From: Bacteroidia bacterium
GTDB lineage: Bacteria > Bacteroidota > Bacteroidia > SpSt-205
Direction: 5' to 3'
Assembly (NCBI GenBank): GCA_026003235.1
Contig: BPGW01000007.1
Span: forward strand, 1-64,000
DNA length: 64,000 nt
Shown: positions 4,395-60,286 of the stretch, in pieces
Numbering within the stretch: position 1 is the first letter of the stretch
Layout: each line of letters starts with the position of its first letter
Notes under the pieces: generated by a model
The model's database searches: none
What the model was told of the DNA's origin: nothing
The model's input: the letters and a program-made list of their open reading frames with translations, nothing else
Translations under genes and position numbers: made by a program

Positions 4395-4402
4395 TACCTT
4401 TG
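4395..4402 (+). promoter_or_regulatory. -7 promoter box TACCTTTG for protoglobin
   Basis: Matches the Bacteroidota TAnnTTTG element. It is preceded by an A/T-rich run with TTG and TTTTTTTG at a plausible -33 distance. The box ends 17 bases before the ATG at 4420, leaving a short leader of roughly a dozen bases. Confidence 0.65.
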
Positions 4403-4419
4403 CCCCAAACCCAACGCCT

Positions 4420-4995
4420 ATGACGATCGCAGGCTACAAGTACGGAGAGGTGCCGGCTTCGCCGGTCAGCGTGCAAGACCTGGAGCTGCTAAAGAAGACG
4501 CTTCTCTGGACCGAAGAAGACGACCGCTACCTGAAAAGGGCGGCCGAAGTGCTGCGCGACCAAGTGGAAGAGGTATTAGACCTGTGGTATGGCTATGTAG
4601 GGAGCCATCCCCACTTGGTACACTACTTTACCCACCGCCAGACAGGGGAACCCATTGGAGAGTATTTGCAGCGGGTTCGGGCGCGGTTTGGGCAGTGGAT
4701 TTTGGACCTGTGCGAAAAACCCAAAGACGCCACTTGGCTGGCGTACCAAGAAGAGATCGGCCGCCGACACAGCGACAAAAAGAACCAGACCGACGGCGTG
4801 GAGTCGGTGCCCTTTGTCCACTTCCGGTACATGGTGGCCTTCATTTACCCCATCACCGCTACTATCCGCCCCTTCCTGGCTAAAAAAGGCCACCCTGCCG
4901 AAGAGGTGGAAAAAATGCACCAGGCCTGGTTTAAAGCGGTAACCCTGACGGTGGTGCTATGGTGCCGGCCCTACGTCAAGGAAGGGCTCTTTTAA
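4420..4995 (+). CDS. Protoglobin (single-domain haem protein)
   Basis: A 191-residue protein that covers the full length of the archaeal protoglobins, with no extra signalling domain. Recognisable blocks are IAGYKYGE near the start, the distal pair W56-Y57 in DLWYGYVGSHPHL, EIGRRH with the expected proximal haem-ligand histidine at about 117, VESVPFVHFRYMVAFIYPIT, and KKGHPAEEVEKMHQAW. Protoglobins bind O2, CO and NO in a buried haem pocket, and their physiological role is not settled. It has its own promoter box at 4395. A DUF2024 gene follows 44 bases after the stop. Bacterial stand-alone protoglobins are less common than globin-coupled sensors, so transfer from archaea or thermophiles is possible but not shown. 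Confidence 0.92.
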   Translation: MTIAGYKYGEVPASPVSVQDLELLKKTLLWTEEDDRYLKRAAEVLRDQVEEVLDLWYGYVGSHPHLVHYFTHRQTGEPIGEYLQRVRARFGQWILDLCEKPKDATWLAYQEEIGRRHSDKKNQTDGVESVPFVHFRYMVAFIYPITATIRPFLAKKGHPAEEVEKMHQAWFKAVTLTVVLWCRPYVKEGLF

Positions 4996-5039
4996 CCGGC
5001 GCCGTCTTACTTGCCGGTAGCCTCTTTGCCCAAAAGCGT

Positions 5040-5303
5040 ATGGAAGTAGCGGTGTGGGACACTTACGTCCGCCGCAAGGACGGGCGGATCATGCACTTTG
5101 ACATCATCGTGCCGGCAGAGGTGAAGGATACGGCACAGATTTTTGCCTATGGACGCGCCTACCTCCAAACCAAGGGGGAAGGGGAGCAGCCGCTGGATAG
5201 CCGGCACTGCCGCTTCTGTCACCTTGAGCGGGCACGGCCCGAATGGGAAAAAGCCATCCGCGAGAAAGGCTACGCCATCTTCGGGATGGAGAACTGCGAC
5301 TAA
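5040..5303 (+). CDS. DUF2024 family protein
   Basis: An 87-residue protein that matches the DUF2024 family: it opens MEVAVWDTYVRRKDG, continues IMHFDIIVP and AYGRAYL, and has the cysteine pair CRFCHLE followed by GYAIFGMENCD. Function is unknown. The family is a small alpha/beta protein, and the Cys-x2-Cys plus His could hold a metal or be redox active (inference). The ATG at 5040 is chosen because family members begin there. The same frame is open back to 4959 and would add a hydrophobic, signal-peptide-like stretch (LLTGAVLLAGSLFAQ), so an exported form starting inside the protoglobin gene cannot be excluded. It probably shares a transcript with protoglobin. Confidence 0.85.
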   Translation: MEVAVWDTYVRRKDGRIMHFDIIVPAEVKDTAQIFAYGRAYLQTKGEGEQPLDSRHCRFCHLERARPEWEKAIREKGYAIFGMENCD

Positions 5304-5327
5304 GGGGAGGTAAAGAGGGGGGCAGCG

Positions 5328-5335
5328 TACTTTTG
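5328..5335 (+). promoter_or_regulatory. -7 promoter box TACTTTTG for heptose kinase
   Basis: Matches TAnnTTTG and ends only four bases (TGGG) before the ATG at 5340. Transcription should start at or next to the start codon, giving a leaderless message. Confidence 0.75.
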
Positions 5336-5339
5336 TGGG

Positions 5340-6329
5340 ATGGATTTTTCGGGGCTGTGGATAGTGGTGGTAGGCGATGTGATGCTGGACCGGTACCTGT
5401 ATGGGCATGTCTCGCGCATTTCCCCGGAAGCGCCGGTTCCCATCTTGGAGCTGGAGGCTGAAGAAAACCGATTGGGAGGGGCCGCCAATGTGGCGCTCAA
5501 CCTGCGCAGTCTGGGGGTGCGCACCAGCCTATGCGGCATTGTAGGACAGGATCCGGCCAGCGAACTTCTGGTGAGCCAGGCCGAACAAGCCGGCATAGAC
5601 ACCTACGGCCTGGTGATGGATCCAGAGCGGCCCACCACGACGAAGATTCGGCTTATTGCCCAGAAGCATCATCTGCTGCGGGTAGATCGGGAGAAACGAG
5701 CCCCCCTCCCCCCTCCCCTGGCGGAGACGCTGCTCCTGAAAGTGCGCACCCTCCTGACCCAGCGGCCCCACGCCCTCATTTTGGAAGACTACGACAAAGG
5801 CGCCCTTAGCCCGTTCCTCATCCGCGCCCTCATAGAAACAGCGCAAAGCCAAGGCATCCCTACCTTGGTAGACCCCAAAAAAGAGCACTTCTGGGCCTAC
5901 GAAGGGGCTACCATCTTCAAGCCTAACTTGCGAGAACTAAGCGAAGCCCTACACCGGCCTTTGCAGGGGGCTTCCTTTGCCGAGCTGGAAGAGGCCATCC
6001 TGGAACTGCGGCGGCGCATGCCCCATACCTACACCGTACTCACCTTGAGCGAACGGGGCATCCTGGCCTACGGCGAAGCCGAGGGCTTTGTGCATGTGCC
6101 CGCTCACTACCGAAACATCGTGGATGTATCGGGAGCCGGGGACACGGTGGTGAGTGTGCTGGCTGTGGGCTCAGCGCTGAAGCTGCCCCTTCCGAAGGCG
6201 GTCGCCCTGGCCAATTTGGCTGGCGGGCTCGTGTGCGAGTATGTGGGGGTGGTGCCTGTGCCACGGGATCGCTGGCTGGAACAGGCGTATGCGTTAGGCC
6301 TGCTTGAGAAGTCCCAGGAGCTGGGATAG
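5340..6329 (+). CDS. rfaE1: D-glycero-beta-D-manno-heptose-7-phosphate kinase (PfkB family)
   Basis: A 329-residue ribokinase/PfkB-fold protein equivalent to the kinase half of HldE. It has the start VVVGDVMLDRYLYGHV, the pocket RISPEAPVPILE, the glycine motif LGGAANVALNL, and DPKK before FKPNLRE. The C-terminal PfkB signature is DVSGAGDTVVSVLAV, whose aspartate is the catalytic base. The adenylyltransferase half is absent, as in organisms with split hldA/hldC genes. It phosphorylates heptose-7-phosphate at O1 on the way to ADP-heptose for the LPS core, which fits kdsA and kdsB in the same window. It overlaps the convergent oxoamine synthase gene by 36 bases at its 3' end. Confidence 0.88.
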   Translation: MDFSGLWIVVVGDVMLDRYLYGHVSRISPEAPVPILELEAEENRLGGAANVALNLRSLGVRTSLCGIVGQDPASELLVSQAEQAGIDTYGLVMDPERPTTTKIRLIAQKHHLLRVDREKRAPLPPPLAETLLLKVRTLLTQRPHALILEDYDKGALSPFLIRALIETAQSQGIPTLVDPKKEHFWAYEGATIFKPNLRELSEALHRPLQGASFAELEEAILELRRRMPHTYTVLTLSERGILAYGEAEGFVHVPAHYRNIVDVSGAGDTVVSVLAVGSALKLPLPKAVALANLAGGLVCEYVGVVPVPRDRWLEQAYALGLLEKSQELG

Positions 6330-8377: not shown

Positions 8378-9189
8378 CGTAGGCTGTAGAGCTGAGCCAG
8401 CTGCGTGAGAAGGGGTTCCACTCGGTCCAGGGGCAGCATCGTGGCTGCGTCGCTGGGAGAAGCCTCAGGCACAGGATGCACTTCCAAGAACACCCCGTCG
8501 GCACCGGCTACCACACCAAGTCGGGCATACAACTCCACAAAGGTCCGCTCCCCCAGCGTCACACCCGCCGCAGTGTTGGGTTTTTGCACGGCATGGGTAG
8601 CATCCATGAGCACTGGATAGCCCCCCTCCCTCAGACGAGGAATATTCCGGAAGTCCACCACCAGGTCTTCATACCCGAAAAAAGTCCCCCGTTCGGTGAG
8701 AAAGATGCGGGTATTGCCGGTGCTGGCGACTTTTTCGGCGGCGAAAAGAGCGGCCTGCGCACTCATAAACTGCCCTTTCTTGATGTTGACGATTCGGCCG
8801 GTTTGGCCTACCGCCAAAAGGAGGGCCGTTTGCCGGGCTAAGAAAGCCGGCACTTGTATAACATCCGCCACTTCGGCTACGGCAGGTACTTCGGGGGTTT
8901 CGTGTACATCGGTCAGCACCGGAACGCCAAAGTCTCGCTTCACGCGAGCCAAGATCTCCAGCGCTTCGGCATCGCCTATGCCTTGAAAGCCCGTAATGCG
9001 GGTTCGGTTCGCCTTTCTGTAGGAAGCCTTGAAGACATAAAAGAACCCCAGCCTATCCGTGATTTGCACGAGCTTTTCTGCGACTTGCGCACATATATCA
9101 TACGATTCCACCACGCAGGGGCCTGCTACCAGGAGAGGTTTTGTTTCTGCCCAACCGAACCAGGCAGGCCACCCGGATGCGTGCATCAC
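8374..9189 (-). CDS. kdsA: 3-deoxy-8-phosphooctulonate synthase (Kdo-8-P synthase)
   Basis: Condenses PEP with arabinose-5-phosphate to make Kdo-8-phosphate for the inner LPS core. The 271-residue protein has the class signature VAGPCVVES near the start, then KASYRKANRTR, VLTDVHE, VPAFLARQTALL, NIKKGQFMSA, LTERGTFFGY, DATHAVQKPN and FLEVHP. The start is either the GTG at 9189 or the ATG directly after it (9186). Both overlap the TGA of the enoyl-CoA hydratase gene. Its stop overlaps the next gene's ATG. kdsB lies elsewhere in the window at 37.0-37.8 kb. Confidence 0.95.
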   Translation of the reverse strand: MMHASGWPAWFGWAETKPLLVAGPCVVESYDICAQVAEKLVQITDRLGFFYVFKASYRKANRTRITGFQGIGDAEALEILARVKRDFGVPVLTDVHETPEVPAVAEVADVIQVPAFLARQTALLLAVGQTGRIVNIKKGQFMSAQAALFAAEKVASTGNTRIFLTERGTFFGYEDLVVDFRNIPRLREGGYPVLMDATHAVQKPNTAAGVTLGERTFVELYARLGVVAGADGVFLEVHPVPEASPSDAATMLPLDRVEPLLTQLAQLYSLR

Positions 9190-9962: not shown

Positions 9963-9966
9963 GGGG

Positions 9967-9974
9967 CAAAAATA
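9967..9974 (-). promoter_or_regulatory. -7 promoter box TATTTTTG for the echA-kdsA operon
   Basis: Read on the minus strand the box ends four bases (CCCC) before the ATG at 9962, again predicting a leaderless message. It drives the operon that includes kdsA. Confidence 0.75.
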
Positions 9975-9986: not shown

Positions 9987-12425
9987 CTAAGCGGGGACCG
10001 CCGCACCCAGCGCCTCTGCCTTGAGCCCTTCAATAGCGAAGGCCAGCAGGGAGGGCAGGTCGCTAAAGTAATGCAAGGTAAGCCCTTCCAGGAGGTCAGC
10101 TGGGATATCAGCTATGTCTTTTCGGTTGGCTTCAGGGAGGGCTACGTCCCGCAGGCCAGCCCGCAAGGCTGCCAGGAGCTTTTCTTTGAGGCCCCCGATG
10201 GGAAGGATTTTGCCGCGTAGGGTGATTTCGCCGGTCATAGCCAGGTAAGGTCGGATGGGCTGGCCCGTCACCAGCGAAGCCAAAGCCGCCAAGAGTACCA
10301 CCCCCGCTGAAGGTCCATCCTTAGGCACCGCCCCCGCTGGAATGTGAATGTGCACATCGTGGGTTTTGAACCACTCCGGCGGCGCCAGCTGATAAGAGCG
10401 CACCAGGTGATACGCAATCGTAGCGGATTCCTTCATCACTTCGCCCAGCTGGCCGGAAAGGGTAAGTTTCCCTTCGCCGGGCATGGCGAGGGTCTCAATG
10501 TAGAGCACCTCTCCCCCATAAGGAGTCCATGCCAGGCCTATCCCTACGCCTGGGCGCAAGTTCTCTTCGTAAGCTTCCTTTTCAAAGCGGGGCACGCCCA
10601 GAATCTCCTCCAGTTTTTCGGGCCCCACCGTAACCTGGAAGCGGGCTCGCTGTTTAGAGGGGAGGTCAGCCATCTGACGGGCGGTCCAACGGGCCAGACC
10701 CGCCAACTCCCGCTGAAGCTGGCGCACACCCGATTCGCGGGTATAGTACTCAATGACGCGCAGGAGGGTCTCTTCGGGTACATGCCAATGGGAAGGCTGA
10801 AGGCCGTGTTCGGTGGCGACTTTGGGAAGGAGATGGCGCTGCGCTATCTGGAGCTTTTCAGGCACGGTATAACCTGAAAGCTCAATAACCTCCATACGAT
10901 CCCGCAAAGCAGGGTGAATCGTGTCCAGACTATTGGCGGTAGCAATGAAGAGAACACGCGAAAGGTCGTAGGGAATTTCCAGGTAGTGGTCCTGGAAGGT
11001 GGTGTTTTGCTCAGGGTCCAGAACCTCTAAGAGGGCGTGGGCTGGGTCACCCCGGAAGTCATGGCCTATTTTGTCTATTTCGTCCAGCACGAAGACAGGG
11101 TTGCTGGTACCGGCTCGGCGCAGCAGCTGGAGGATACGCCCCGGCATGGCGCCAATGTAGGTGCGGCGATGGCCGCGGATTTCGGCTTCGTCGTGGAGGC
11201 CCCCCAGCGACATGCGCACGTACTTGCGGCCCAGCGCTTCGGCCACCGACTTAGCGAGAGAAGTTTTGCCCACCCCCGGCGGCCCATACAGGCACAGAAT
11301 CGGGCTCTTCATGTCACGGCGTAGCTTGAGCACAGCGAGGTACTCCAGAATGCGCTTTTTGACCTTTTCCATGCCATAGTGGTCCCGGTCTAAGACCGCA
11401 CGCGCCCGCTTGAGGTCAAAATTATCCCGGGAGTACTCCTGCCAAGGTAGGTCCAATAGCCATTCCATGTAAGCCGTAGCGACGCCATACTCCGGCGAAA
11501 ACGGCGGAATGCGCTCAAGCCGAGCTATCTCTCGCTCAAAGGCTTGTTGCGCTTCGGCAGGCCACTTCTTTTGCTTGGCTTTTTCTTGGTAACGGTTTAG
11601 GTCTGACTGTTCGGGGGATTCTCCCAGTTCATCCTGGATGGCTTTGATTTGCTGGCGAAGGATATAGTCCCGCTGCTGCTGCTCCAGGGTGCTGCGCACG
11701 CGGTTCAGGACCTCCTCCGTGATCTCCAGCACATTGAGCTGGCTCTGAAGCTGGGCCAGGACTTTTTCAGCGCGGACGGCCATGTCATCCAGTTCCAGGA
11801 GGGCCTGCCGTTCTGGCAGTTCCATAGGGAGGTTGTTGGCCAGAAAATTTGTCATGAAGGGCAGGCCCTGGATGTTCTGGAGGAGGGTTTTAGCTTCCTG
11901 GGGGCGGTCAGGGAGCAGCTCAAGGGCTTTGAGGGCGTTCTCTCGCAAAGCCAAAAGCAGGGCTTTCTGATGGGCCTCATCAGGCAGGGTCTCAGGCGCG
12001 TACACAAACTTGGCTTGGAGGAACGGCTCAGTCTGCACAAATTCCGTGAGCCGGATCCGATGTCGCCCTTGTATCAGCAGGGCCACATGGCCGTCTGGCG
12101 TGGGCTGAGCCCGCAGAATCTTAGCCAGCGTGGCCGTGGTGTAGACATTGTCCGGAGAAACTTCCTCGGCTTCCGGGTCCTTCTGCGCTGTGATGGCAAG
12201 GTAGGGGTTGCGTTGGGCCTTCAGCTCTTCCAGCAGCCGAAGCGAACTGGCCCTCGCCACCGAAATGGGCAAAATCACCCCCGGGAAAAGCGTGGTATTG
12301 CGCAGAGGAAGGACCGCCAGCGTCTCCAGCTCCACCAAAGGAAAGCGCAGCGGACCCGTCTCCCGCACCGCATACGCCAGCGTGTCAAACTCGTCCCCAA
12401 AAGGCGAGTTCTCTTCTTTCCACAT
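9987..12425 (-). CDS. lon: ATP-dependent protease Lon
   Basis: An 812-residue LonA protease. The N-terminal substrate-binding domain starts around [15 protein letters not shown]. The AAA+ module carries Walker [14 protein letters not shown] and Walker [11 protein letters not shown]. The protease domain has the catalytic Ser in [13 protein letters not shown] (about residue 706) and Lys in [12 protein letters not shown] (about residue 749). It degrades misfolded and regulatory proteins in the cytoplasm. The ATG at 12425 is chosen because the N-terminal domain begins about 25 residues later; the longer open frame upstream runs antisense through the ddl gene. It is divergent from ddl with a 74-base intergenic region. 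Confidence 0.96.
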
Positions 12426-12487: not shown

Positions 12488-12495
12488 TACCTTTG
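12488..12495 (+). promoter_or_regulatory. -7 promoter box TACCTTTG for the ddl fusion
   Basis: The box ends four bases (TGAG) before the GTG at 12500. It lies in the divergent region between lon and ddl. The predicted transcript is leaderless. Confidence 0.75.
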
Positions 12496-12499: not shown

Positions 12500-15103
12500 G
12501 TGCGGGTAGGTATCCTTTGCGGTGGCGCTTCGCGAGAAAGAGAAATCTCTTACGCCGGCGGACGAACGGTGTACGACCTCCTGGATAGAAGGGCATTTGA
12601 GCCGGTATGCATTTTTTTGGATGCCTTTCACCGCTTTGTACGAATAGGCCCAGAAAAACTCTACTACGGGAAAATAACCGATTTTTTTCCACCGCCTGAC
12701 CGGCTGCCTGGTGACCTTCGTTTTCCGGTGTATGCGGAGCAAGTGTGGTATCCAGAAAGCTCGGCTTACCTGTCAGCGCTGACGGAAGTAGGTCCTGTCC
12801 TGCCTGTGGAAACGCTGGCCAGCGAAATAGACCTGGCTTTTCTGGTGCTGCATGGGCTGGGCGGGGAAGACGGCACCATCCAAGGCCTGCTCTCCCAGGT
12901 GGGGCTTCCCTACACCGGCACAGGGCTCTACGGCAGCAGTTGGGGCATGGACAAAGCTCGCCAACGGGCCTGGCTTGAAGCCTACGGCTTTGCGGTGCCA
13001 ACCTACCGGGTGTTACCTCGCCGCCTGCTGTGGGAAAAGCCCGCCGAACTGGTAGAGCGCATCGTAGAAGAAGTGGGGCTCCCCTGCGTGCTCAAGCATC
13101 CCCTTCAGGGTTCCACCATCGGTGTGGCTATCTGCCGTCGTCCTGAAGAGGTGCTGGCCCATAGCTACCGGTGCGCTTTTACGTGGCCGGTGAGCTGGCT
13201 TCCCGAAGCCCCTACGCCGGCCTTGCTTGACCTGACGCAAGGGATAGGCTTGCCCGCCCTGTACCGAGACGAAGAAGGCACACCCCGGCAACTGATTACC
13301 GATTGGCAAGAGCTTTCGTATTTCCTGGCCCATCGGCCCCACCGAGGGTTTGTAGAAGCCTGGGATGCCCCCGCCGTCTTGCTTGCAGAGCGCTTTGTGG
13401 AAGGGGAAGAGTTCTCGGTGATCGTGATAGAGGCGCCTGACGGGAAGCCGGTGGCACTGCCCCCTACGCACATCCGGAAAGCGCAGGCTCTCTACGATTA
13501 CCGAGCCAAGTACCTTTCGGGGGTCAGCCACAAGAAGACGCCTTCGCCCCACCTGCCCAATGACCGGATTCGGGCCGAGGCCGAACGCCTGGCCCAAGCA
13601 GCCGGCTTGCAAGTCTACGCCCGCTTAGACGGCATCGTGAGCCGTACAGGCGAGGTTTTCTTCAATGACCCCAACACCACTTCAGGCATGCTGCCAGCTT
13701 CGCTGCTTTTCCACCAAGCGGCGGAAGTCGGCTTTACCCCCACAAGCTTTCTTTCGTACCTAATTCAGCGGTCGCTATCCAAGCACGAATGGAGCACGCC
13801 TCGCGGTTTTGTGCGGGAAAGGCGGCTTGCTCTGCGAAGCGCCGCTGCCCCTTCCCCCCTGCGGCGTATAGCGGTGGTTTTCGGGGGGCCTTCCACCGAA
13901 AGGCACATCTCTCTGGAGAGCGGTCGCAATGTCGTGCAGAAACTCTCCAGCAAATACGAGGTTATTCCCCTTTTCCTGCGCGTGCAAGGTGCAGAGCTGA
14001 CGCTGTGGGAGCTCCCCCCTCGGTTGCTTTTCAAAGACAACGCGGACGATGTGGCGGCAGCCCTGGAAGAAGCCGAACCGCCTGAAGTCACGGCGAGGGT
14101 TCGGGCGCGCCTGGAGGCTTACAAGCCCTTCCTGCCGCTTATGGAGAGCTACGCTGCTAAGCCCGTAGCCTGGGAAGAGCTGCCGGCGCGGGTGGATTTT
14201 GTGTTTCTGGCGCTGCATGGGCGCCCCGGCGAAGACGGCACAGTTCAAGCTCGGCTTGAGGCCCTGGGCCTCCCCTACAACGGGAGCCCCCCCGCCGTGT
14301 GTGCCCTCCTGATGGACAAGGAAGCCACGCACCGGTTTGCCGCCGAACGGGGCTTTCTCGTACCGCCTCACAAACGAATCAGCCGCACAGCCTGGCAGAA
14401 CCACCCCGAAAAGGTGCTGGACCTCTTGGAAGAGCATCTCGGGCCGTACCCCTTCATCGGGAAGCCGGTGGATGAAGGATGCAGCAGCGCTGTGCGGGTG
14501 CTGCCCGACCGCCCCACCGTAGAAGCTTACCTAAAGGCCCTCCTCCGAGAAGAGGAAGCGATTCCTCCAGCTCTGCGAGACAAGCTTGGGATTTTGCCGG
14601 ACGAGCCTTTCCCCCCCAAATCGGAAGCCCTGATTGAAAAGTACCTCCACGGCCCCGAGTGGGTAGAAGTCACCATCGGCCTCCTTACCCACACCGAAGG
14701 AGGCCAAGTGCGCTACGAAGCCTTTCTTCCCAGCCAGACCCTAAAAACCGAAGGGATTCTTAGCCTGGAAGAAAAGTTTTTAGCGGGGATGGGTCAAAAC
14801 ACCACGCCAGCCCGCCTTTACCCCGACAATCCTGATTGGAATCGTCAGGCCTGCCAGATCCTTCAGCGGCAGGTAGAGCGGTTGGCCGAGGCCGTGGGCC
14901 TGCATGGCTATGCGCGCGTAGATGGCTTTGCTCGGCTCCTGGGCCAAGGCGAAGTGGAATTCTGGCTGCTGGAGGTCAACACGCTCCCTGGGCTCACGCC
15001 CGCCACGGTATTCTTTCACCAAGCGGCGCTCGCAGGCTACACCCCCCTGCAAGTTTTGGAACACATTCTGGCCGAAGGATGGCGTCGCCAAGGTGTGGGG
15101 TAG
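12500..15103 (+). CDS. ddl: Tandem double-length D-alanine--D-alanine ligase
   Basis: One 867-residue frame encodes two consecutive D-Ala-D-Ala ligase units. Unit 1 (about 1-440) has HGLGGEDGTIQGLL, YTGTGLYGSSWGMDKA, LKHPLQGSTIGVA and ends FNDPNTTSGMLPASLLFHQA. Unit 2 (about 450-867) has VVFGGPSTERHISLESG, HGRPGEDGTVQARLEALG, MDKEATH, GKPVDEGCSSAV and the textbook end EVNTLPGLTPATVFFHQA. The enzyme makes the D-Ala-D-Ala dipeptide for peptidoglycan. Unit 2 carries the better match to the metal- and substrate-binding end (EVNTLPG). Unit 1 has DPNTTSG there, so its activity or acceptor may differ (inference). The GTG start sits four bases after a promoter box. The next gene overlaps it by 25 bases. 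Confidence 0.9.
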   Translation: MRVGILCGGASREREISYAGGRTVYDLLDRRAFEPVCIFLDAFHRFVRIGPEKLYYGKITDFFPPPDRLPGDLRFPVYAEQVWYPESSAYLSALTEVGPVLPVETLASEIDLAFLVLHGLGGEDGTIQGLLSQVGLPYTGTGLYGSSWGMDKARQRAWLEAYGFAVPTYRVLPRRLLWEKPAELVERIVEEVGLPCVLKHPLQGSTIGVAICRRPEEVLAHSYRCAFTWPVSWLPEAPTPALLDLTQGIGLPALYRDEEGTPRQLITDWQELSYFLAHRPHRGFVEAWDAPAVLLAERFVEGEEFSVIVIEAPDGKPVALPPTHIRKAQALYDYRAKYLSGVSHKKTPSPHLPNDRIRAEAERLAQAAGLQVYARLDGIVSRTGEVFFNDPNTTSGMLPASLLFHQAAEVGFTPTSFLSYLIQRSLSKHEWSTPRGFVRERRLALRSAAAPSPLRRIAVVFGGPSTERHISLESGRNVVQKLSSKYEVIPLFLRVQGAELTLWELPPRLLFKDNADDVAAALEEAEPPEVTARVRARLEAYKPFLPLMESYAAKPVAWEELPARVDFVFLALHGRPGEDGTVQARLEALGLPYNGSPPAVCALLMDKEATHRFAAERGFLVPPHKRISRTAWQNHPEKVLDLLEEHLGPYPFIGKPVDEGCSSAVRVLPDRPTVEAYLKALLREEEAIPPALRDKLGILPDEPFPPKSEALIEKYLHGPEWVEVTIGLLTHTEGGQVRYEAFLPSQTLKTEGILSLEEKFLAGMGQNTTPARLYPDNPDWNRQACQILQRQVERLAEAVGLHGYARVDGFARLLGQGEVEFWLLEVNTLPGLTPATVFFHQAALAGYTPLQVLEHILAEGWRRQGVG

Positions 15104-16418: not shown

Positions 16419-16426
16419 TACCTTTG
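16419..16426 (+). promoter_or_regulatory. -7 promoter box TACCTTTG for the HMA protein
   Basis: Ends three bases (AAG) before the ATG at 16430, the shortest spacing in the window together with the M1 peptidase. Leaderless transcript predicted. Confidence 0.75.
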
Positions 16427-16792: not shown

Positions 16793-16800
16793 TACCTTTG
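16793..16800 (+). promoter_or_regulatory. -7 promoter box TACCTTTG for tRNA-Gln and prs
   Basis: Ends eight bases before the tRNA 5' end at 16809. A TTG at 16773-16775 lies 17 bases upstream, fitting the -33 element. A small inverted repeat CCAAG/CTTGG (16760-16776) overlaps this region and may end the previous transcript. Confidence 0.7.
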
Positions 16801-20231: not shown

Positions 20232-20239
20232 CAAAGGTA
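20232..20239 (-). promoter_or_regulatory. -7 promoter box TACCTTTG for pheT
   Basis: Read on the minus strand, it ends six bases (CCAGGC) before the ATG at 20225. It sits in the short gap after der. Confidence 0.7.
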
Positions 20240-22246: not shown

Positions 22247-22589
22247 CTCACAAAGCTACAAAAACCCTTGCGCCCCCCCGAAGAGTGCCCTTTCCTTTTA
22301 GCTCAAATGGAAGCTCCCACAACCGGGCCCAAGGGTTTTCACCCTTCCCCTTCACCCTCTCTCAAAAAAAGAAGCCCCCCTTTCCCTAATGCTCAGAGAG
22401 CCGCAGCCTGCAACATTCACCCTTGCCCCTCGTATAGGTAGGGCAGATATGACCCGCCGCAAGCCAAAGGGGGCTACAGGAGATAGTAAATCTTTATATC
22501 AATAAAATTTCGTGTGCAAAATTCGGCCAAATTTTACATCGGTTTTTTCCATACGTAGGTATGACCAACCCCAACAGAACAGAGGGGCT
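22247..22589 (+). other. Intergenic region between divergent operons
   Basis: 343 bases with no convincing gene. It holds the minus-strand promoter at 22251-22258 and C-rich low-complexity tracts at 22330-22440. Next comes a distinctly A/T-rich stretch (22480-22560, with TATATC and AAAATTT tracts) that probably carries the promoter of the VWA/AAA operon. No clear TAnnTTTG box was found for that operon, so its promoter may be of another type. Confidence 0.5.
22251..22258 (-). promoter_or_regulatory. -7 promoter box TAGCTTTG for the SH3 lipoprotein-der operon
   Basis: On the minus strand it ends four bases (TGAG) before the GTG at 22246. Same spacing and same four bases as the ddl promoter. 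Confidence 0.7.
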
Positions 22590-25690: not shown

Positions 25691-25698
25691 TATCTTTG
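25691..25698 (+). promoter_or_regulatory. -7 promoter box TATCTTTG for the envelope gene cluster
   Basis: Ends four bases (GGGC) before the ATG at 25703. A TTTG-containing T-tract from the terminator lies upstream. It probably drives the run of overlapping genes to 31627. Confidence 0.72.
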
Positions 25699-31659: not shown

Positions 31660-31667
31660 TACCTTTG
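31660..31667 (+). promoter_or_regulatory. -7 promoter box TACCTTTG for mntH
   Basis: Ends four bases (TCTC) before the GTG at 31672, with a TTTTTTTGACA tract at the -33 position. An imperfect inverted repeat (CCTACCTT ... AAGGTGGGTAGG) spans the box and the first codons and could bind MntR, but it is weaker than the one in front of mntR. Confidence 0.72.
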
Positions 31668-37792: not shown

Positions 37793-37800
37793 TACCTTTG
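37793..37800 (+). promoter_or_regulatory. -7 promoter box TACCTTTG for the radical SAM gene
   Basis: Ends five bases (TTGGG) before the ATG at 37806 and so decides that start over an in-frame ATG at 37779, which lies upstream of the box. Confidence 0.75.
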
Positions 37801-41265: not shown

Positions 41266-41273
41266 TATATTTG
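41266..41273 (+). promoter_or_regulatory. -7 promoter box TATATTTG for the tRNA-Ala/Ala/Ser operon
   Basis: Ends nine bases before the first tRNA. A TTG at 41245-41247 lies 18 bases upstream, giving a good -33/-7 pair. Confidence 0.75.
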
Positions 41274-41562: not shown

Positions 41563-41570
41563 TTTCTTTG
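41563..41570 (+). promoter_or_regulatory. Variant -7 box TTTCTTTG for ispG
   Basis: One mismatch to TAnnTTTG. It ends five bases (GAGCG) before the GTG at 41576, the same spacing as other leaderless starts here. Confidence 0.55.
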
Positions 41571-41575: not shown

Positions 41576-43489
<1,914 letters not shown>

Positions 43490-44643
43490 GCCGCTCGCAA
43501 GCCTCCTCCAGTAGCTCTATCGGCCGAGCAAAGCACAAACGCAGCCAGCCTTCGCCTTCTTCCGAGCTGTAAAAAGGCCCCAGCGGAATAGCCGCCACCC
43601 CTACCTCCCGCGTAAGGGCTTCGGCCAGCTCTACATCCCCCTGGGTCACGCCAGGGGGGCGCACCAGCACAAAATAGCCCCCTTCCGGCGGTAGCACTTC
43701 CAGAGAGGTGCTCTGCACAAGTCGCTCCAGAAAAAACCTCCGACGCGCCAAAAGCGGCCGATGAAAGTAAAGGGCCCTTTCAAGATCCTGGCTTAGGTAC
43801 GCTGCGACCACCGCCTGCAAAGGCGTAGGCGCACAAAAAGGAATGAACTGATGCACCGCCCGAATAGCGGCGGTAAGGGCTGGTGGCGCAGCCACATACC
43901 CCAACCGCCAGCCGGTCGCCCCCACCATCTTGCCCAGAGAACCCACCACCACAGCCCGCTCCCGAAGAAGGGGAGACTGCCGCACACTCACAGGACGCAC
44001 GGCCTCTTCTTGTCGCCAGTCGGGGTGCCACGTCATCAGCTCGTACGCCTCGTCCACAACGATAAAAAGCTCAGGAAAGCGCTCGGCTATCGCCTCCAGC
44101 CGAACCAAGTCAGCCTGACGCAAACACAGACCCGTTGGATTGTGAGGGAAGTTGAGCAGCAGAAGCTGGGTAGCCGAGGAAAGGACCGCTTCAAGGTGGT
44201 CCCAAGGAAAGGCCCAGGGTAGTTTCAGGGGAATGGAGACGGGGCGAGCTTGCAGACCCGCCATCCGAAAAGCTGGCAGGTAGCTATCGTACGCCGGTTC
44301 TACGAAAACCGCTTCTCCGCCTGGCGTCGTCAAAGCCAGGATGGCGGCAAAGAGCCCTTCCGTAGCGCCTACCGTGATAGTGATTTCGGAGGTGGGATCG
44401 TAGCGCACCCCAAAAAAGCGCTCAGAAAGGGCTGCTACTTGCTCTTGCAGAGGGGGGTAGCCAGCAGGAAAGGAATACTGGTGATGGTTGCCTGGCTGGC
44501 CCACCTGAGCGGAGGCTAACTCCAGCAAGCGCGGGTCAGGCTCCAGCCACATTAGCCCCTGCGCCAGGTTGAGCGCCCGGTGAGCCTGGGCCAGGGCCGT
44601 CATACGGGCAAAAATGCTCGGCGGAGCAGAAAAACGCATGGCT

Positions 44644-45776: not shown

Positions 45777-45784
45777 CAAAAATA
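45777..45784 (-). promoter_or_regulatory. -7 promoter box TATTTTTG for the lysine-dehydrogenase-like gene
   Basis: Minus-strand box five bases (GTTCC) before the ATG at 45771. It lies in the divergent region shared with mntR. Confidence 0.7.
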
Positions 45785-45846
45785 CCACCAACATCCCATC
45801 TTTACTTGGCTGAGGGGACAAGCCCAGGGCCTTCTGCGAATCTTTT

Positions 45847-45860
45847 ACCTTTGTAAAGGT
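45847..45860 (+). promoter_or_regulatory. MntR promoter with inverted repeat (probable autoregulatory operator)
   Basis: ACCTTT-GT-AAAGGT is an inverted repeat of two perfect six-base arms. It contains most of the -7 box TACCTTTG (45846-45853) and runs into the GTG start at 45859. A dimeric DtxR/MntR protein bound here would block transcription start, so autoregulation is likely. Binding is inferred from symmetry and position. Confidence 0.6.
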
Positions 45861-50376: not shown

Positions 50377-51043
50377 AGATGAGTTCTTTGGCCCAATTTA
50401 CAACCGTCTCTATTTGCTGGGGAATGGTAAGGTGGGTGGTATCCAGCACGCGTGCATCGGGGGCCTTGCGAAGGGGGCTAATGGGACGATTTTCATCGCG
50501 CTGGTCCCGCTCCAAGAGCTGGTGCCGAATCGCTTCGGGGTCGGCTGGGATCCCTCTGGCCAAGAGCTCCTGATAACGACGCTGTACACGAGCCTCTATG
50601 TCTGCGCACATAAATACCTTGAGTTCGGCATGGGGAAAGACGACGGTGCCGATATCTCGGCCGTCCATGACCACGCCACCGTGCTGGCCAAGCCGGCGCT
50701 GCTCGGCAATTAACCGCTGGCGCACCCAGAGCACCGCACTGACCTCGCTGGCAAAAGCGCTAATCTCAGGACGCCGAAGCTCCTCTTCCAGACGGCGATC
50801 CCCCACATAGACCATCATTTCCTTGCCTTCTCGCTCCAGATGCAGGGAAAAGGAGGCAAGCCACTCGGGAAGTTTTTCCGCCTGAAGCTTCCTTATGCCC
50901 TGCTCCCAGAGGTACCACGCTACAGCCCGGTACATGGCGCCTGAATCTATGTGAAGGTAATCCAAGGCCTCGGCTACCCCCCGAGCCGTAGTGCTTTTGC
51001 CGGTAGCGGCATAGCCGTCTATCGCAATAATGATACGGCGCAC
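50357..51043 (-). CDS. cmk: Cytidylate kinase
   Basis: A 228-residue CMP/dCMP kinase: P-loop IAIDGYAATGKSTTARGVA, HIDSGAMYRAVAW, MDGRDIGTVVFPHAELKVF and the lid RDQRDENRPISPL. The GTG at 51043 gives VRRIIIAIDGYAATGKS, the normal start, and follows a TATCTTTG box by eight bases; the longer open frame upstream runs into the neighbouring Sel1 gene region. It heads an overlapping minus-strand operon cmk-ispH-porQ-dprA. Confidence 0.94.
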   Translation of the reverse strand: MRRIIIAIDGYAATGKSTTARGVAEALDYLHIDSGAMYRAVAWYLWEQGIRKLQAEKLPEWLASFSLHLEREGKEMMVYVGDRRLEEELRRPEISAFASEVSAVLWVRQRLIAEQRRLGQHGGVVMDGRDIGTVVFPHAELKVFMCADIEARVQRRYQELLARGIPADPEAIRHQLLERDQRDENRPISPLRKAPDARVLDTTHLTIPQQIETVVNWAKELIYAPASF

Positions 51044-51051: not shown

Positions 51052-51059
51052 CAAAGATA
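51052..51059 (-). promoter_or_regulatory. -7 promoter box TATCTTTG for cmk-ispH-porQ-dprA
   Basis: Minus-strand box eight bases (CTTGTAAG) before the GTG at 51043. It lies between the Sel1 gene and cmk. Confidence 0.7.
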
Positions 51060-55161: not shown

Positions 55162-55165
55162 GGTA

Positions 55166-55173
55166 CAAAGATA
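55166..55173 (-). promoter_or_regulatory. -7 promoter box TATCTTTG for yebC-pccB-purC
   Basis: Minus-strand box four bases (TACC) before the ATG at 55161. Divergent from the M1 peptidase promoter. Confidence 0.75.
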
Positions 55174-55225: not shown

Positions 55226-55233
55226 TACCTTTG
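55226..55233 (+). promoter_or_regulatory. -7 promoter box TACCTTTG for the M1 peptidase
   Basis: Ends three bases (GGG) before the ATG at 55237 and fixes that start over an ATG-like codon at 55204. Confidence 0.75.
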
Positions 55234-55236
55234 GGG

Positions 55237-57125
55237 ATGCGCTTTCTCTGGCTGGGCTTAGCCGCTGCCCTATGGGCGCAGCAAGACGCCGCTACGCGCG
55301 CCCTTCTCTTGAAGTACGACGCCACCTTCTGGTGGCTCAACCTCACGGTAAGCCACACTTCTACGCAGTTGGGGCCCTCGTGGGTGCTGACTCGCCTCAG
55401 GGTGACCGCTCCAGCGCTGGATACCTTGGTCTTTGAGCTGCATAGCGCGCTCACGGTGGACTCGGTCGTAGTGCAAGGAATTCGTCGCAGCTTTATCCGT
55501 CGGGGTTCTACCGTGCGCATCCCCCTCAACCCCCAGCCTCCCCAAGGCACAGAGCTGGAAGCCCTCGTCTATTACCGGGGTACGCCCCCCTCTTCGGGGA
55601 AGCACCGGCATCTTCAACCGGTCGTCGCCCTCCTGGGGCAACCAAGTCACTTGGACCCTCACCCAGCCTTTTTATGCCCACACCTGGTGGCCTTGTAAGC
55701 AGATCCTCTCCGACAAAGCCGACTCGGTATGGACTTTCCTGACGGTGCCGCTGGGGACACGAGCCGGCGCCGTCGGCCTCTTAGAAGGGACCGACACCCT
55801 ACCCCTCACCCAGCAAGTACGCCTCCGCTGGAAGAGCCGCTACCCGATTGCCTATTACCTCGTAGCCTTCGCCGTGGCCGAATACATAGACTACAGTTTT
55901 TATGCCCCCATCCCAGGCGCCCCTCAGCCCGTTTTGGTGCAAAACTACCTCTACAACAACCCACAAACCCTGCCCTATTTTCAAGACCAGATTGACACCA
56001 CAGCCGGGCTCCTGCGGGAGTTTTCCCGGCTATACGGCCCGTATCCCTTTTGGCGAGAAAAGTACGGCCACATGATGGCTCCTTTCTCGGGGGGGATGGA
56101 ACACCAGACGATGACGACGCAAGGCTTTTTTACCTTCACCCTGACGGCGCACGAACTGGCGCACCAATGGTTTGGCGACTGGGTCACCTGCGCCAGCTGG
56201 CAAGACATCTGGCTCAACGAAGGCTTTGCCTCGTACAGCGAATACGTAGCGCTCCAAAGGCTCGGCGGCGCCGCTGCCGCCCGCTCTTGGCTCGTCAACA
56301 CCCACGACGATGTCGTCTCCAACCCCCCGCGGCAGCGTATGGGTAGCCGACACCTTGAACGATAGCCGCATCTTTGACAGCCGGCTCACCTACAACAAAG
56401 GCGCCTACCTCCTTCACATGATCCGCTTTCGCTTGCAAAACGACTCTCTCTTTTTTGCGGTTTTGCGCGCCTACCTCGCCCTTCAAGGCGGACAAACAGC
56501 GCTGGCCGGGGACCTCCGGCAAGTTTTGGAACAAGCGACAGGCCAAAGTTGGGCTACCTTTTTCCAGCAGTGGTATTACGGAGAAGGCCACCCTATTTTC
56601 TCTGCCCGTTGGAATAGCGCAGGGGGGGGGATCTGTGGCTGGAACTTTCCCAGCAAGGCAGCTGGCCAGCGAGCGTGGCCTTTTTTGATACGCCGGTGGA
56701 GATTCGTCTGGCCCGACAAGGCCGACCTGATACCACCGTGCGCCTATGGCCTTCTCAGCCTACCCAGGCCTTCTACCTATCTGGCGTGGGTACTGTGACG
56801 CAGGTCCAGATAGACCCCGACTACGGGATTTTACGGCAAGTAAGCGCTATCACGCAGGATGCCACGCTGGCTTTACCTGGGGCTTTGGGGCTGGGGGGTG
56901 CAGATAGGGCCGGTTCCGCTCAAGACAGGAGAAAGACTTGAGGCAGCGCTGCCAGGACCAGGCACTATTCAGATTCGGGATGCCCGAGGCACGCTGCTCC
57001 TCCAGGAGGAGGTGGCAGAACCCACCTGGAGCGCCGTCCTGAACCTACCAGCGGGGTGGTATCTCTTCAGCTGGGGGGACGCTTTAGGCCGTAGCGCCGT
57101 ACGCCGCCTTCTGGTCGTGCCTTGA
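55237..57125 (+). CDS. M1-family zinc aminopeptidase with T9SS sorting domain, four frame shifts
   Basis: Signal peptide ([15 protein letters not shown]), M1 N-terminal beta domain, then the catalytic domain. It has [11 protein letters not shown] (variant of the GAMEN exopeptidase motif) and the zinc site HELAHQW followed 18 residues later by the glutamate in LNEGFASY. The end ([20 protein letters not shown]) looks like a type A T9SS sorting domain. The frame changes at C6 (55585-55590), C6 (56323-56328), G9 (56622-56630) and at about 56880-56900. Three need one base removed; the G9 site needs one added. All parts are well conserved across the joints. It probably cleaves peptides outside the cell. 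Confidence 0.82.
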
Positions 57126-57147
57126 CCCCCACCCCACCAAAAAGCCG

Positions 57148-57155
57148 TATCTTAG
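57148..57155 (+). promoter_or_regulatory. Variant -7 box TATCTTAG for the TPR gene
   Basis: One mismatch to TAnnTTTG; ends four bases (GCGC) before the ATG at 57160. Confidence 0.5.
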
Positions 57156-57159
57156 GCGC

Positions 57160-58608
57160 ATGTTCTCCCACGAGGAAGACGGCATAGATGTAGAAGGCCT
57201 GCGCCAGCAGTTTGAAGCAGAACGAGCAGCCGGGAGGCTGGGGTATTTCAGCTTGGCGGAGCTGGAGCATCTGCTGGAGTGGTACCTTTTCCATCGGCTG
57301 TACCCTCAGGCCTATGAGGTGATCCAACATGCCGCCTCGCTGTATCAAGACGCCCCCGAAGTGCCTTTCTGGCGCAGCCGTGTAGCCTTTGAGCGCGAAC
57401 GATACGCCGAAGCCTACCTCCATGCCATGGCCGCCCTGGAAAAAATCCTCCTTACCGCCGAAGTCTACAACCACTTCATTGAAGTCTGCATGGCCGCTGA
57501 ACGAGTGGACTCTGCCCTGTATGTCTTTGACCTGTGGTGGGAAGAAGCCCCCACCCCCGCAGAAAAAGCTCGCGCTGCGGCCTTCTTGGCAGAAGAGCTC
57601 CTGGTTCGCAAGCAGGCCGAGGAGGCTATTCCCATCCTTTGGCAGGGGCTGGGCGGTCTACCCCGCTCGGCGCCTGTATTTTGCTGCGCAGCTGGCTAAG
57701 GCCTACCAGCAAAGTCAGCGAGGAGAGCGAAGGGCTCCAAGCGTTTTTTGCCCGCTTGTGGGACCACCCTTCGGATGTTTCGCTTTGGCTGGGGCTGGCC
57801 CGCCTTTACCTGGTTAAGCGCAGTTACGCTCAGGGGGTGCAAGCGCTTGAGCAAGCCCGCCTGCTCCTGGAAGCCACCGAAAACGACAGCGACACCGCTT
57901 GGGGTACGCTTTACCGCCTGTGGGCCCAATACTACGAAGCCATAGGCCAGCCTTTCCAAGCCTACCGAGCCTGGCTCCAAGCTCGAGAACACCTGCCTTA
58001 CCACCCTCAGGTCCTGGGGCGGTTGGTGGCCTACTACCAAGAAAACGGTCTCTGGGAGGCCGCCGAACCCTACCTTCAGCGCCTGCACCAGAAAGCACCT
58101 CACTGGGCGCAGACCCGCTGGCACCTGGCCCGCCACCTCCACCACACCGGCCAGTACAAAGACGCCAGCTTCTATTACCAAACCCTCCTGCACCACCCTC
58201 AGTACGGGCCAGAAGCCACTTACCACCTCCTCCGCCTGTACTTGGAGACGCACCGGGTGGACCGCCTCAAGAAGCTCTTAGACAAGCTGCTAAGTCGCTA
58301 CGGAAAAACCCCTACACCCTGGTTGTACTGGGTAAAGCGGGCGTACCAAGAAAAGCTAGAAGGGTCTGGCCTATCTCTTACTGGAGAGTCTGCTGCGCAA
58401 AAAAAAGAAGCTAGATACGGCGTCGTTGTATTACTGGCATGCTGCGCTGGCCCTGAGCCGGGGGCAGGTGGAAGGGGCAGCGCATAGCCTTGAACAGGCC
58501 CTTCTGCTGGCTCCGGCGGAAGCTACCCTTTTTACCGAGCTGACCCAAAAACTGGGTTCCCTGCCCCTGCCCATCTCCTGGCTCCTGCGACAATATGGCT
58601 TACGGTAA
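57160..58608 (+). CDS. TPR-repeat protein, three frame shifts
   Basis: About 480 residues once repaired, almost all helical tetratricopeptide repeats (LEHLLEWYLFHRLYPQAYEV, AEAYLHAMAALEKILLTAE, EAAEPYLQRLHQKAPHWAQT, AAHSLEQALLLAPAEA). The frame moves from 1 to 2 at the C4 run 57661-57664, from 2 to 0 near AAA 57711-57713, and from 0 to 1 at GGG 58362-58364. Each is repaired by deleting one base. No signal peptide is obvious. Its stop overlaps the comA start by 14 bases. Function unknown. Confidence 0.75.
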
Positions 58609-59371
58609 TTTCTCTTTTCCGGCCCTCCCTTTTCGGACCGAGAAGCCTCGCCAGATGGGTTTGACCATGGTCATGGACAAGGGCCTGGGTGCGCGGGCTG
58701 CCGCCGACCTGGTGGCCAACGCCGCCCCCTACATAGACCTGGTCAAGCTGGGCTGGTGCACCGCTTACCTGACCCGCAGCCTGGAAGAAAAACTCCAGAT
58801 CTATCGCGAAGCGGGGGTTCAGCCTTACTTCGGCGGCACGCTCTGGGAAGCCCTATACATCCGCCGCGCCGAAGGGGAGTTTTTCCGCCTCTTGGAGCGC
58901 TACCAAATCCAGGTGGTGGAAGTCTCTGACGGCAGCGTGGAAGTGCCCCATGAAGAGAAGCTGCGTTGGATAGAAACTTTTCGCCAGCGAGGCTATACCG
59001 TCCTGTCCGAAGTAGGCAGCAAAGACGCTACGAAGGTGCTACCTCCTTTCCGGTGGATAGAGCTCATTCGCGCTGAACTGGAGGCGGGTTCCAGCTGGGT
59101 CATCGCCGAAGCCCGCGAAAGCGGCACCGTAGGCATGTACCGCTCCACCGGCGAAGTGCGCGAAGGCCTTGTAGAAGAGGTCGTACACGCTATTCCCCCT
59201 GAAAAGCTCATCTTTGAAGCTCCTCAACGCAGCCAGCAAGCGTGGTTTATCCGGCGCTTCGGCACCAACGTCAACCTGGGCAACATCGCCCCCGAAGACA
59301 TCATTAGCGTAGAGACCCTCCGCCTGGGCCTGCGAGGCGATACTTTTTGGAGCTTTTTGGAGCAGCGGTGA
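58595..59371 (+). CDS. comA: Phosphosulfolactate synthase (ComA)
   Basis: A 258-residue TIM-barrel protein matching archaeal and bacterial ComA: QMGLTMVMDKGLGARAAADL, YIDLVKLGWCTAYL, GVQPYFGGTLWE, VVEVSDGSVEV, EVGSKDATKVLPP, and EARESGTVGMY followed by IFEAPQRSQQAW. It adds sulfite to PEP, giving 2-phospho-3-sulfolactate, a step to coenzyme M in methanogens and to sulfolactate or cysteate in bacteria. No comB, comC, comD or comE was seen in the window. It overlaps the TPR gene before it and nuoH after it (GTGA). Confidence 0.88.
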   Translation: MAYGNFSFPALPFRTEKPRQMGLTMVMDKGLGARAAADLVANAAPYIDLVKLGWCTAYLTRSLEEKLQIYREAGVQPYFGGTLWEALYIRRAEGEFFRLLERYQIQVVEVSDGSVEVPHEEKLRWIETFRQRGYTVLSEVGSKDATKVLPPFRWIELIRAELEAGSSWVIAEARESGTVGMYRSTGEVREGLVEEVVHAIPPEKLIFEAPQRSQQAWFIRRFGTNVNLGNIAPEDIISVETLRLGLRGDTFWSFLEQR

Positions 59372-60262
59372 ATGGGCTCTTGCTGGTAGGGCTGCTGCTG
59401 GGCTATGCCCTTGGGGTGGTGTACGCAGAACGGAAAATCGCCCGCCTGGGTACAAGACCGCCAGGGACCCATGGAAACCGGCCCTTATGGGATCCTCCAG
59501 ACGCTGGCTGACATCCTCAAGCTTTTGCGCAAACAAGAAAGCCTACCCGCTACGGCGGTGCGGGGGCTTTTTCTCTCAGCCCCCCTCCTGGCTTTGGCGG
59601 CTTCAGTGGGCGCTTGGAGCTGGCTACCTTTCCTGAAGCCTTCAGCCTCAGGACCCTACGGCCTCTGGCTGGCCCTGACCGTGCTGGGGTTGGAAGCAGC
59701 CGCCGTCTTCTTGGGGGGATGGAGCAGCGGCAGCAAATACGCTCTGCTGGGCGCCTATCGCCTTCTTGTAGCCCTCTTAGCCTACGAACTCATCTTGGGC
59801 CTGCTGCTTTTGACGGTGCTGACCCATTACGGCAGCTTTGACCTTCAGGCCATTGCTCAGGCTCAGCGCACCCGACCCGGCCTCCTCCAAAGCCCTTTTC
59901 TCTTTCTGGCGGCAGGGCTTTGGCTTGCGGCAGGGATCCTCGTGGCGCACCGAGCGCCCTTTGACCTGCCCGAAACAGAATCCGAACTCGTAGCTGGCGC
60001 CTTCACCGAATACAGCGGTTTCCGCTTTGCCCTCTTTATGCTAAGTGAGTATGTGGTCCTCCTCCTGGAAGCGGTCTGGGTAAGCTGGGTGTTCTTGGGG
60101 GGCCTGCTCGCTGTGCCTTTTCTGGTGGTGCTGAAGATTCTCCTGCGGTGGGCCTGGCCTCGGTGGCGCCCCGACCAAGTGGTGACCTTGGCCTGGCGCT
60201 ACGGCATCCCCCTCGCTTTCGCCGCTTGGATAGGCGAAATGGTCCTCCAGCGCGCCTCCTGA
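59368..60262 (+). CDS. nuoH: NADH-quinone oxidoreductase subunit H, one frame shift
   Basis: Membrane subunit of complex I at the quinone site. Family blocks: YAERKIA in helix 1, QDRQGPMETGPYGILQTLAD, and APFDLPETESELVAGAFTEYSG, the best-conserved loop. About 297 residues after repair, with roughly eight helices. The frame shifts at CCC 59441-59443; deleting one C joins AERKIAA to WVQDRQGP. The GTG start overlaps the comA stop (GTGA). No other nuo gene is adjacent, which is unusual since complex I genes are normally clustered. Confidence 0.87.
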
Positions 60263-60278
60263 ATTTTAGCCGCTATCG

Positions 60279-60286
60279 TACTTTTG
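60279..60286 (+). promoter_or_regulatory. -7 promoter box TACTTTTG for the exbB-exbD-tonB operon
   Basis: Ends four bases (GGGT) before the ATG at 60291. Leaderless start predicted for ExbB. Confidence 0.75.

Follow-up and report, generated by a model that had tools for sequence, protein, structure and literature searches.

The stretch of DNA examined here, referred to as the window, comprises 64,000 nucleotides (nt) with 60% GC from the 2.06-Mb genome (11 contigs, 82% complete) of a Bacteroidia bacterium. It carries repeated copies of an octamer corresponding to the -7 promoter element, written as TAHHTTTG or TANNTTTG and called the box below; the number of bases between the end of the box and the start codon is called the gap. 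The initial annotation had listed 14 gene starts preceded by a box at a gap of 3-6 and had taken them as a sign of widespread leaderless transcription. An exact TANNTTTG was found at the given distance before all 14. The recurring four-base gap was observed at eight of these starts (5340, 9962, 12500, 22246, 25703, 31672, 55161, and 60291), and the other gaps were 3 (16430 and 55237), 5 (37806, 45771, and 45859), and 6 (20225). The variants named at ispG, the gene starting at 44603, and the TPR gene were all present with one mismatch each. The box at 4395, where the claimed series had begun, is 17 bases from the protoglobin gene and falls outside the claimed spacing of 3-6; hence, this gene would not be leaderless. 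Two boxed starts had been absent from the list, namely panD at 4033 (GTG, gap 3) and CMP kinase at 51043 (GTG, gap 8). The boxes are as follows.

4037..4044, minus strand: panD box TACCTTTG, gap 3 to GTG 4033; residue 1 of the Asp_decarbox profile falls on position 1, and the L003 orthologue has a box at gap 4.
4395..4402, plus strand: protoglobin box TACCTTTG, at a distance of 17 bases from ATG 4420; if a promoter, one with a short leader.
5328..5335, plus strand: heptose kinase box TACTTTTG, gap 4 to ATG 5340; boxes also in L003 (gap 4) and L112 (gap 5).
9967..9974, minus strand: echA box TATTTTTG, gap 4 to ATG 9962.
12488..12495, plus strand: box TACCTTTG of a Ddl-type gene, gap 4 to GTG 12500.
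16419..16426, plus strand: HMA protein box TACCTTTG, gap 3 to ATG 16430.
16793..16800, plus strand: tRNA-Gln box TACCTTTG, 8 bases before 16809; a non-coding control promoter.
20232..20239, minus strand: pheT box TACCTTTG, gap 6 to ATG 20225; residue 1 of TIGR00472 falls on position 1.
22251..22258, minus strand: box TAGCTTTG with an atypical G at position 3, gap 4 to GTG 22246.
25691..25698, plus strand: box TATCTTTG, gap 4 to ATG 25703.
31660..31667, plus strand: mntH box TACCTTTG, gap 4 to GTG 31672.
37793..37800, plus strand: radical SAM gene box TACCTTTG, gap 5 to ATG 37806.
41266..41273, plus strand: box TATATTTG of tRNA-Ala, the leader of its cluster, 9 bases before 41283.
41563..41570, plus strand: ispG one-mismatch box TTTCTTTG, gap 5 to GTG 41576.
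Before the putative aminotransferase gene at 44603: box CATTTTTG with one mismatch, gap 5.
45777..45784, minus strand: box TATTTTTG of a saccharopine-dehydrogenase-like gene, gap 5 to ATG 45771.
45846..45853, plus strand: mntR box TACCTTTG, gap 5 to GTG 45859.
51052..51059, minus strand: CMP kinase box TATCTTTG, gap 8 to GTG 51043; predicted leader of about 3-4 nt.
55166..55173, minus strand: yebC box TATCTTTG, gap 4 to ATG 55161; residue 1 of two YebC models falls on position 1.
55226..55233, plus strand: box TACCTTTG, divergent from yebC, gap 3 to ATG 55237.
Before the TPR gene: one-mismatch box TGTCTTTG, gap 4 to the start at 57534.
60279..60286, plus strand: box TACTTTTG of an ExbB/TolQ-type gene, gap 4 to ATG 60291.

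An exact TAHHTTTG at a gap of 2-8 was found before 15 of the 58 gene calls in the window, and the one-mismatch form before 7 more. Conversely, the window holds 20 TAHHTTTG sites, 15 of which precede protein genes at a gap of 2-8, two precede tRNA clusters, and one is the protoglobin site. The remaining two (4304-4311 and 11417-11424, both on the minus strand) have no start of a long open reading frame (ORF) and no tRNA at a fitting distance; these are either chance occurrences or unrecognised RNA genes.

The number of boxes by itself is only a moderate excess: 28 TANNTTTG sites were counted in the window against a mean of 15.9 (standard deviation 4.1) in 100 shuffles, one of which also reached 28. 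What stands out is their position. A start codon (ATG or GTG) belonging to an ORF 100 aa or longer lay 3-6 bases downstream of 15 of the 28 TANNTTTG sites and 14 of the 20 TAHHTTTG sites, and the same held for 531 of 18230 sampled background positions (2.9%), giving a binomial P of about 1e-17 for 14 of 20. When the same six letters were placed in their 29 other arrangements, 6 of 208 sites in the window were so positioned.

We then counted distances from the box to the start codon in a 464-kb sample consisting of the window and 20 stretches of 20 kb from the same genome. For its 185 boxes, and with no gene calls used, the numbers of ATG at gaps 0 to 9 were 0, 1, 3, 11, 43, 13, 11, 13, 8, and 3. 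At gap 4, ATG was found 43 times, GTG 17 times, CTG once, and TTG never; thus ATG and GTG are both in use as boxed starts, as had been proposed, and TTG is not. Four of five control motifs, including TAHHTTTC and TAHHTCTG, gave no peak at gap 4. The fifth, TAHHTTAG, which differs from the box by one base, gave a small one (6 ATG in 33 sites), and its sites may include weak promoters. We attribute to chance the 6 ATG seen at gap 11 for the 69 TAHHTCTG sites. In the whole genome, the pattern TAHHTTTGN{3,6}ATG occurred 314 times, compared with 15 times for the reversed motif and 47 times for a gap of 14-17. A peak at gap 4 was also observed in stretches of a single-contig relative, G006. Such a distance count with controls had been put forward in the initial annotation as a check, and it bears the proposal out.

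The starts themselves were compared with protein models. At least one model aligned its residue 1 with position 1 at the boxed start for 7 of the 20 proteins tried, in addition to PanD: yebC, pheT, echA (NF006699), mntR (PRK03902), elongation factor Ts (EF-Ts), YchF, and a nucleotidyltransferase of L100. For mntR, the better-scoring NF047407 aligned residue 3 with position 7, and PRK03902 aligned residue 1 with position 1. The remaining proteins were a few residues off, did not reach the N-terminus, had no match, or carried extra residues before the model. The last group includes L13 (residue 16 on position 9) and ExbB/TolQ (residue 35 on 18), so that the start at 60291 has no confirmation from the TolQ model. 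Many boxed proteins open directly with an apparent signal peptide, as judged by eye. The boxed starts of several genes appear well supported by the model alignments, those of most others being putative. Among the genes of the translation machinery, EF-Ts (L094:11486-12328, minus strand) is boxed at gap 5 and L13 (L092:5078-5521, plus strand) at gap 8, the start of the latter being less certain. YchF (L091:3811-4929, plus strand), which is discussed as a regulator of leaderless translation in the accessible part of one source (PMC8779481), is itself boxed 4 bases before its ATG.

Conservation was examined for 16 query genes; for 10 of them, the searched loci contained no relative that could be aligned, and alignments starting after query residue 12 were dropped. 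Judged by echA, the nearest named relatives of the window's genome are the metagenome-assembled genomes (MAGs) SKYB7, SKW103, RSWP8, SKW77, SKYG57, SKYG92, and SKYB87 (identity 77-84%), whose titles mostly read Bacteroidia bacterium, RSWP8 being titled Sphingobacterium sp. Several of them presumably come from hot springs, an origin given in none of the records. At echA, the box and the four-base gap were kept in 7 of 7 near relatives while the four spacer bases varied. Of the 11 family relatives compared for each of the next two genes, 10 had an exact box before yebC (gap 4-5; the eleventh has TATCTTCG) and 9 before pheT (gap 3-6), with one-base variants at gap 4 in the remaining two. In G012, which belongs to a sister family, the gap was 9 at yebC and 24 at pheT. 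The heptose kinase box recurred in both alignable relatives, that of panD in the single one, and that of mntH in one of two (L157, gap 5). In a more distant Bacteroidia MAG, SKYG108 (L019; 38% GC, echA 53% identical), the ATG of echA follows TACCTTTG at gap 4, and 15 kb of its sequence hold 27 boxes, 3 of them with an ATG at this gap.

Subsequently, the 388 genes called by codon usage in the sample were grouped by arrangement, with 19 genes at stretch ends kept as a class of their own. An exact box at a gap of 2-8 was most frequent before divergent genes (54 of 102); the proportions were lower for close same-strand genes (36 of 201), genes at middle distance (7 of 24), and stretch-end genes (1 of 19). 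For divergent genes at a gap of 3-8, the count of 54 exact boxes compares with 4-12 in five control windows, and that of boxes with up to one mismatch, 70, with 7-17; for close same-strand genes, 54 of 201 had a box with up to one mismatch, against 9-11 in the control windows. These boxes might be real and yet mostly secondary promoters, the main messages being leadered from further upstream. In keeping with this, an exact box lies at a gap of 13-18 before 12 of the 102 divergent genes, and the 36 boxed close same-strand genes are perhaps served by internal promoters. However, the windows at 23-28, 33-38, 43-48, and 53-58 each contained a box for only 4-7 of the 102 divergent genes, against 54 at 3-8, and no leader-length class of similar size was seen up to 58 bases, the limit of the scan. 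We consider this explanation very unlikely.

The box was also found where no translation takes place. Among 15 tRNAs (12 from the sample of the window's genome and 3 from relatives), an exact TAHHTTTG lay 8-10 bases before the mature 5' end of 11 of 11 cluster-leading tRNAs and of 0 of 4 internal ones. This spacing fits a transcription start site (TSS) 4-5 bases after the box followed by a short precursor. Since tRNAs are untranslated and yet boxed, we take the box to be a promoter rather than a translation signal. The opposite view, in which the box is an AT-rich, unstructured or S1-binding translation element and the true TSSs lie further upstream, has a basis in reports, accessible in part, that Bacteroidota lack Shine-Dalgarno (SD) sequences and carry AT-rich or A-rich signals before their starts (PMC3160421, PMC3155529, PMC10783764). 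Besides the tRNAs, it is opposed by the lower frequency of the box at close same-strand genes than at divergent ones and by the specificity of the sequence, as TAHHTTTC and TAHHTCTG have no peak at gap 4. We rejected it on the tRNA control and the bias towards divergent genes, and regard it as highly improbable.

The weakest alternative, in which AT-rich octamers near start codons were picked by eye and the pattern reflects chance or the choice of starts, could draw on the facts that the gene starts carry no annotation, that the codon-based caller often misses the N-terminus, its start being the boxed one in 50 boxed cases, and that candidate starts were scanned over a range, but the raw gap histogram peaks at 4 without gene calls, 14 of 20 sites stand against the expected 2.9% and the 6 of 208 for permuted motifs, the box is kept across genomes while the spacer varies, and protein models back some of the starts, so that this reading was rejected on the gap-4 peak and the permuted-motif control and carries practically no weight.

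We aligned the boxes of 103 genes, omitting TTG starts and boxes less than 60 bases from the sequence start. The resulting logo read TA(C/T)(C/T)TTTG(C/T), with A-rich positions at -8 to -6 of the box (about -18 of the presumed +1) and A or T at -16 to -14 (about -27/-28). One-mismatch boxes at a gap of 3-8 had G at position 3 nine times and at position 4 twice.

As for the genes with no box, SD-like 4-mers at -16 to -4 were found in 11% of unboxed close same-strand genes, compared with 14-19% further upstream; in the 103 boxed genes the value was 1%, the box itself partly filling this stretch. There is no clear SD signal in the window's genome. The counts for unboxed close same-strand genes cover 124 of 165, namely genes whose called start has an ATG nearby, and their nearest-ATG starts are approximate. 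Of these 124, 76 overlap the preceding gene, 36 of them by exactly 4 bases (ATGA), which suggests coupled re-initiation. Twelve of the 13 genomes of the order have ribosomal protein bS21; scanning L187-L189 for the start of rpsU gave no result.

At the level of sequence, the association of the box with gene starts appears real and well supported. We infer that TAYYTTTG is the -7 element of the Bacteroidota housekeeping sigma factor, and that the window's family places it so that transcription would start on the ATG or GTG or no more than about 4 bases away from it. In Flavobacterium johnsoniae, 4-5 bases separate the -7 element from the TSS, according to the accessible part of the report (PMC6847099); with a gap of 4 and this spacing, +1 would fall on the first base (A or G) of the start codon. 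The preference for a purine at +1 and the rule of an RTG start would then coincide. The leaderless message would probably be loaded through its 5'-terminal RUG on a ribosome already carrying initiator tRNA, and downstream genes of operons may often be read by coupling at overlapping stop and start codons (ATGA). Taken together, these findings suggest that in the window's family, genes equipped with their own promoter are very probably transcribed without a leader as a rule. The broader claim of the initial annotation, that leaderless messages are a general mode here, stands for about half of such genes and not for all of them.

Several observations weigh against this interpretation. Just 5 of 42 far same-strand genes had an exact box, which speaks against a simple rule that every first gene is boxed; missed small genes or longer leaders may explain the low number. 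Starts at gap 3 require a spacing of 3 bases to +1, shorter than usual. In the logo of 103 boxes, no information peak for a -33 TTTG element was seen near box position -21. A search with the Sigma70_r3 profile found no match in the window's 82%-complete genome, the one genome searched, and 16S rRNA, the carrier of the anti-SD, was found in 0 of 11 genomes of the genus. Among 52 unboxed divergent or far genes, 15% had an SD-like 4-mer at -16 to -4, slightly more than the 10-12% further upstream. Moreover, the second mntH relative (L163) has no box.

To see how far the trait extends, we divided the count of TAHHTTTGN{3,6}ATG by that of the same pattern with N{14,17} in each genome (near/shifted ratio). 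In a survey of 295 genomes of the class, the ratio was 3.23-8.73 in 10 genomes of the window's family, and two further family genomes gave 245 near versus 62 shifted (G008) and 237 versus 42 (G011). The other 285 class genomes had a median of 1.19, a 95th percentile of 1.84, and a maximum of 3.29; 45 were above 1.5 and 37 below 1, so weaker use of the box may be wider. A family of three genomes within the class, f41 (G051, G090, and G123; sampled stretches from G051 and G123 have 36% GC), had an absolute excess of 278-400 against 192-316 in the window's family, its genomes being larger and AT-rich. In a survey of 247 genomes of the phylum, the nine genomes of f86 (G318, G342, G363, G374, G378, G385, G405, G412, and G493), which lies outside the class, summed to 671 near versus 215 shifted, with ratios of 2.0-5.8 in 9 of 9. 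High ratios on low counts were obtained for f65, f50, and f10, and some genomes of the phylum survey combine a high ratio with very few matches (for example G299, 16 versus 4).

At the level of genes, an exact box at a gap of 3-8 preceded 54 of 102 divergent genes in the window's genome, 16 of 34 in G006, 10 of 18 in L002-L008, and 4 of 6 in G012. The corresponding numbers were 22 of 82 in f41 (a pool that omits the apparently masked L118), 5 of 64 in f86, and 1 of 34 in f65, in which the high ratio was thus not borne out. Of 308 divergent genes sampled from 73 loci of other Bacteroidota, 7 were boxed, which is no excess over the 11, 8, and 14 at gaps of 13-18, 23-28, and 33-38. These loci were chosen by echA similarity and include many Pontibacter and repeated orthologous sites, which makes them an uneven sample; the surveys are even. 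The 73 loci showed no ATG peak at gaps 3-6, in line with the comparison that the initial annotation had envisaged, and GTG at gap 3 stood out with 27. The trait thus appears strong in the window's family, intermediate in f41, slight in f86, and is not seen in the pooled others. A trait general to the phylum was not borne out for most genomes, given the 7 of 308 in the 73 loci and the class median of 1.19.

Regarding growth temperature, the amino-acid index IVYWREL placed samples of the family high, at about 59-84 °C. Certain controls received impossible temperatures, as low as -27 °C, so the index serves for rough ranking only. G012, of the same order, has an index of about 59 °C yet a weaker whole-genome signal (174 near versus 103 shifted), and f41 has about 25-38 °C yet a clear box signal. 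Thermophily is at most a possible sole cause. We lean, with reserve, towards the view that in a whole family of uncultured and possibly thermophilic Bacteroidota, leaderless messages beginning with RUG are the default, core translation genes included, with ATGA coupling downstream and SD initiation almost unused, and that similar but weaker shifts arose separately in f41 and f86.

Some genes of the window deserve mention in their own right. The Ddl-type gene (12500-15103, plus strand) encodes 867 aa with D-Ala-D-Ala ligase domains in its N-terminal (two stretches) and C-terminal (three stretches) parts, and looks like a duplicated or fused D-Ala-D-Ala ligase. The M1 peptidase region (55237-56798, plus strand) occupies several frames: the Peptidase_M1 profile is matched in part by 55745-56365 and in part by 56310-56798, and the first part of the region, 55237-55698, has no profile match. 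A frameshift, a pseudogene or an assembly error is possible. The ispG (GcpE) gene (41576-43489, plus strand; 637 aa) has its one-mismatch box directly after the tRNA cluster.

How the ribosomes of Bacteroidota, with no Shine-Dalgarno sites to guide them, locate start codons is a question still under study. In a family of the same class as F. johnsoniae, leaderless initiation may be the answer for about half of those genes that have their own promoter. This would offer a natural comparison of the same promoter with a different leader habit, as well as an easy way to locate starts in genomes of the family, by looking for an RTG 3-8 bases after TAYYTTTG; the evolution of leaderless initiation would also become testable within one phylum.

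The box resembles the sigma-ABfr promoters of Bacteroides fragilis, F. johnsoniae, B. thetaiotaomicron, and F. psychrophilum in its six fixed bases and in the avoidance of G at the two free positions, and, as far as the accessible description goes, F. johnsoniae promoters in their AT-rich patches near -18 and -28. In those species the box usually lies further from the start, whereas here it lies at a gap of 3-8 before 54 of 102 divergent genes. The accessible text on F. johnsoniae describes 241 promoters, a much less evident -33 element, and predicted leaders of more than 10 nt in 87% of cases; leaderless mRNA was considered there and judged unable to explain start selection (PMC6847099). Likewise, in the accessible parts of the respective reports, about 3.7% of 5' untranslated regions of B. 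thetaiotaomicron are shorter than 10 nt (PMC7366714), 5.5% of F. psychrophilum mRNAs are leaderless (PMC9723704), and a 2017 study considered leaderless mRNA or S1 binding as possible causes of the signals upstream of genes in Bacteroidetes (PMC5397173). Zheng et al. (2011) predicted leaderless genes, as was done here, from a promoter-like signal just before the start. Of 37 Bacteroidetes/Chlorobi genomes, they list one with such genes (2.4), and they note that their search was for Pribnow-like signals alone, which may make the figures for Bacteroidetes too low (PMC3160421).

Mycobacteria (Mycobacterium tuberculosis and M. smegmatis) likewise have a large leaderless fraction, with ATG and GTG effective at the 5' end and TTG and CTG ineffective there, but they use another promoter element and their leadered genes need an SD, according to the part of the source available (PMC4633059). 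In the accessible accounts of M. tuberculosis, 26% of genes with a primary TSS are leaderless and none encodes a ribosomal protein or elongation factor, whereas here EF-Ts is boxed and, less certainly, L13. Deinococcus, which belongs to another phylum and is likened by its leaderless fraction alone, also has leaderless transcription as a major mode, at 47% of D. deserti mRNAs (as cited in the accessible part of PMC8779481). Among the matches listed in the open PMC literature, no leaderless-rich family of Bacteroidota was found. Leaderless transcription itself is known, and what sets the window's family of Bacteroidota apart is that it appears, judging from its genomes, to have it as a common mode.

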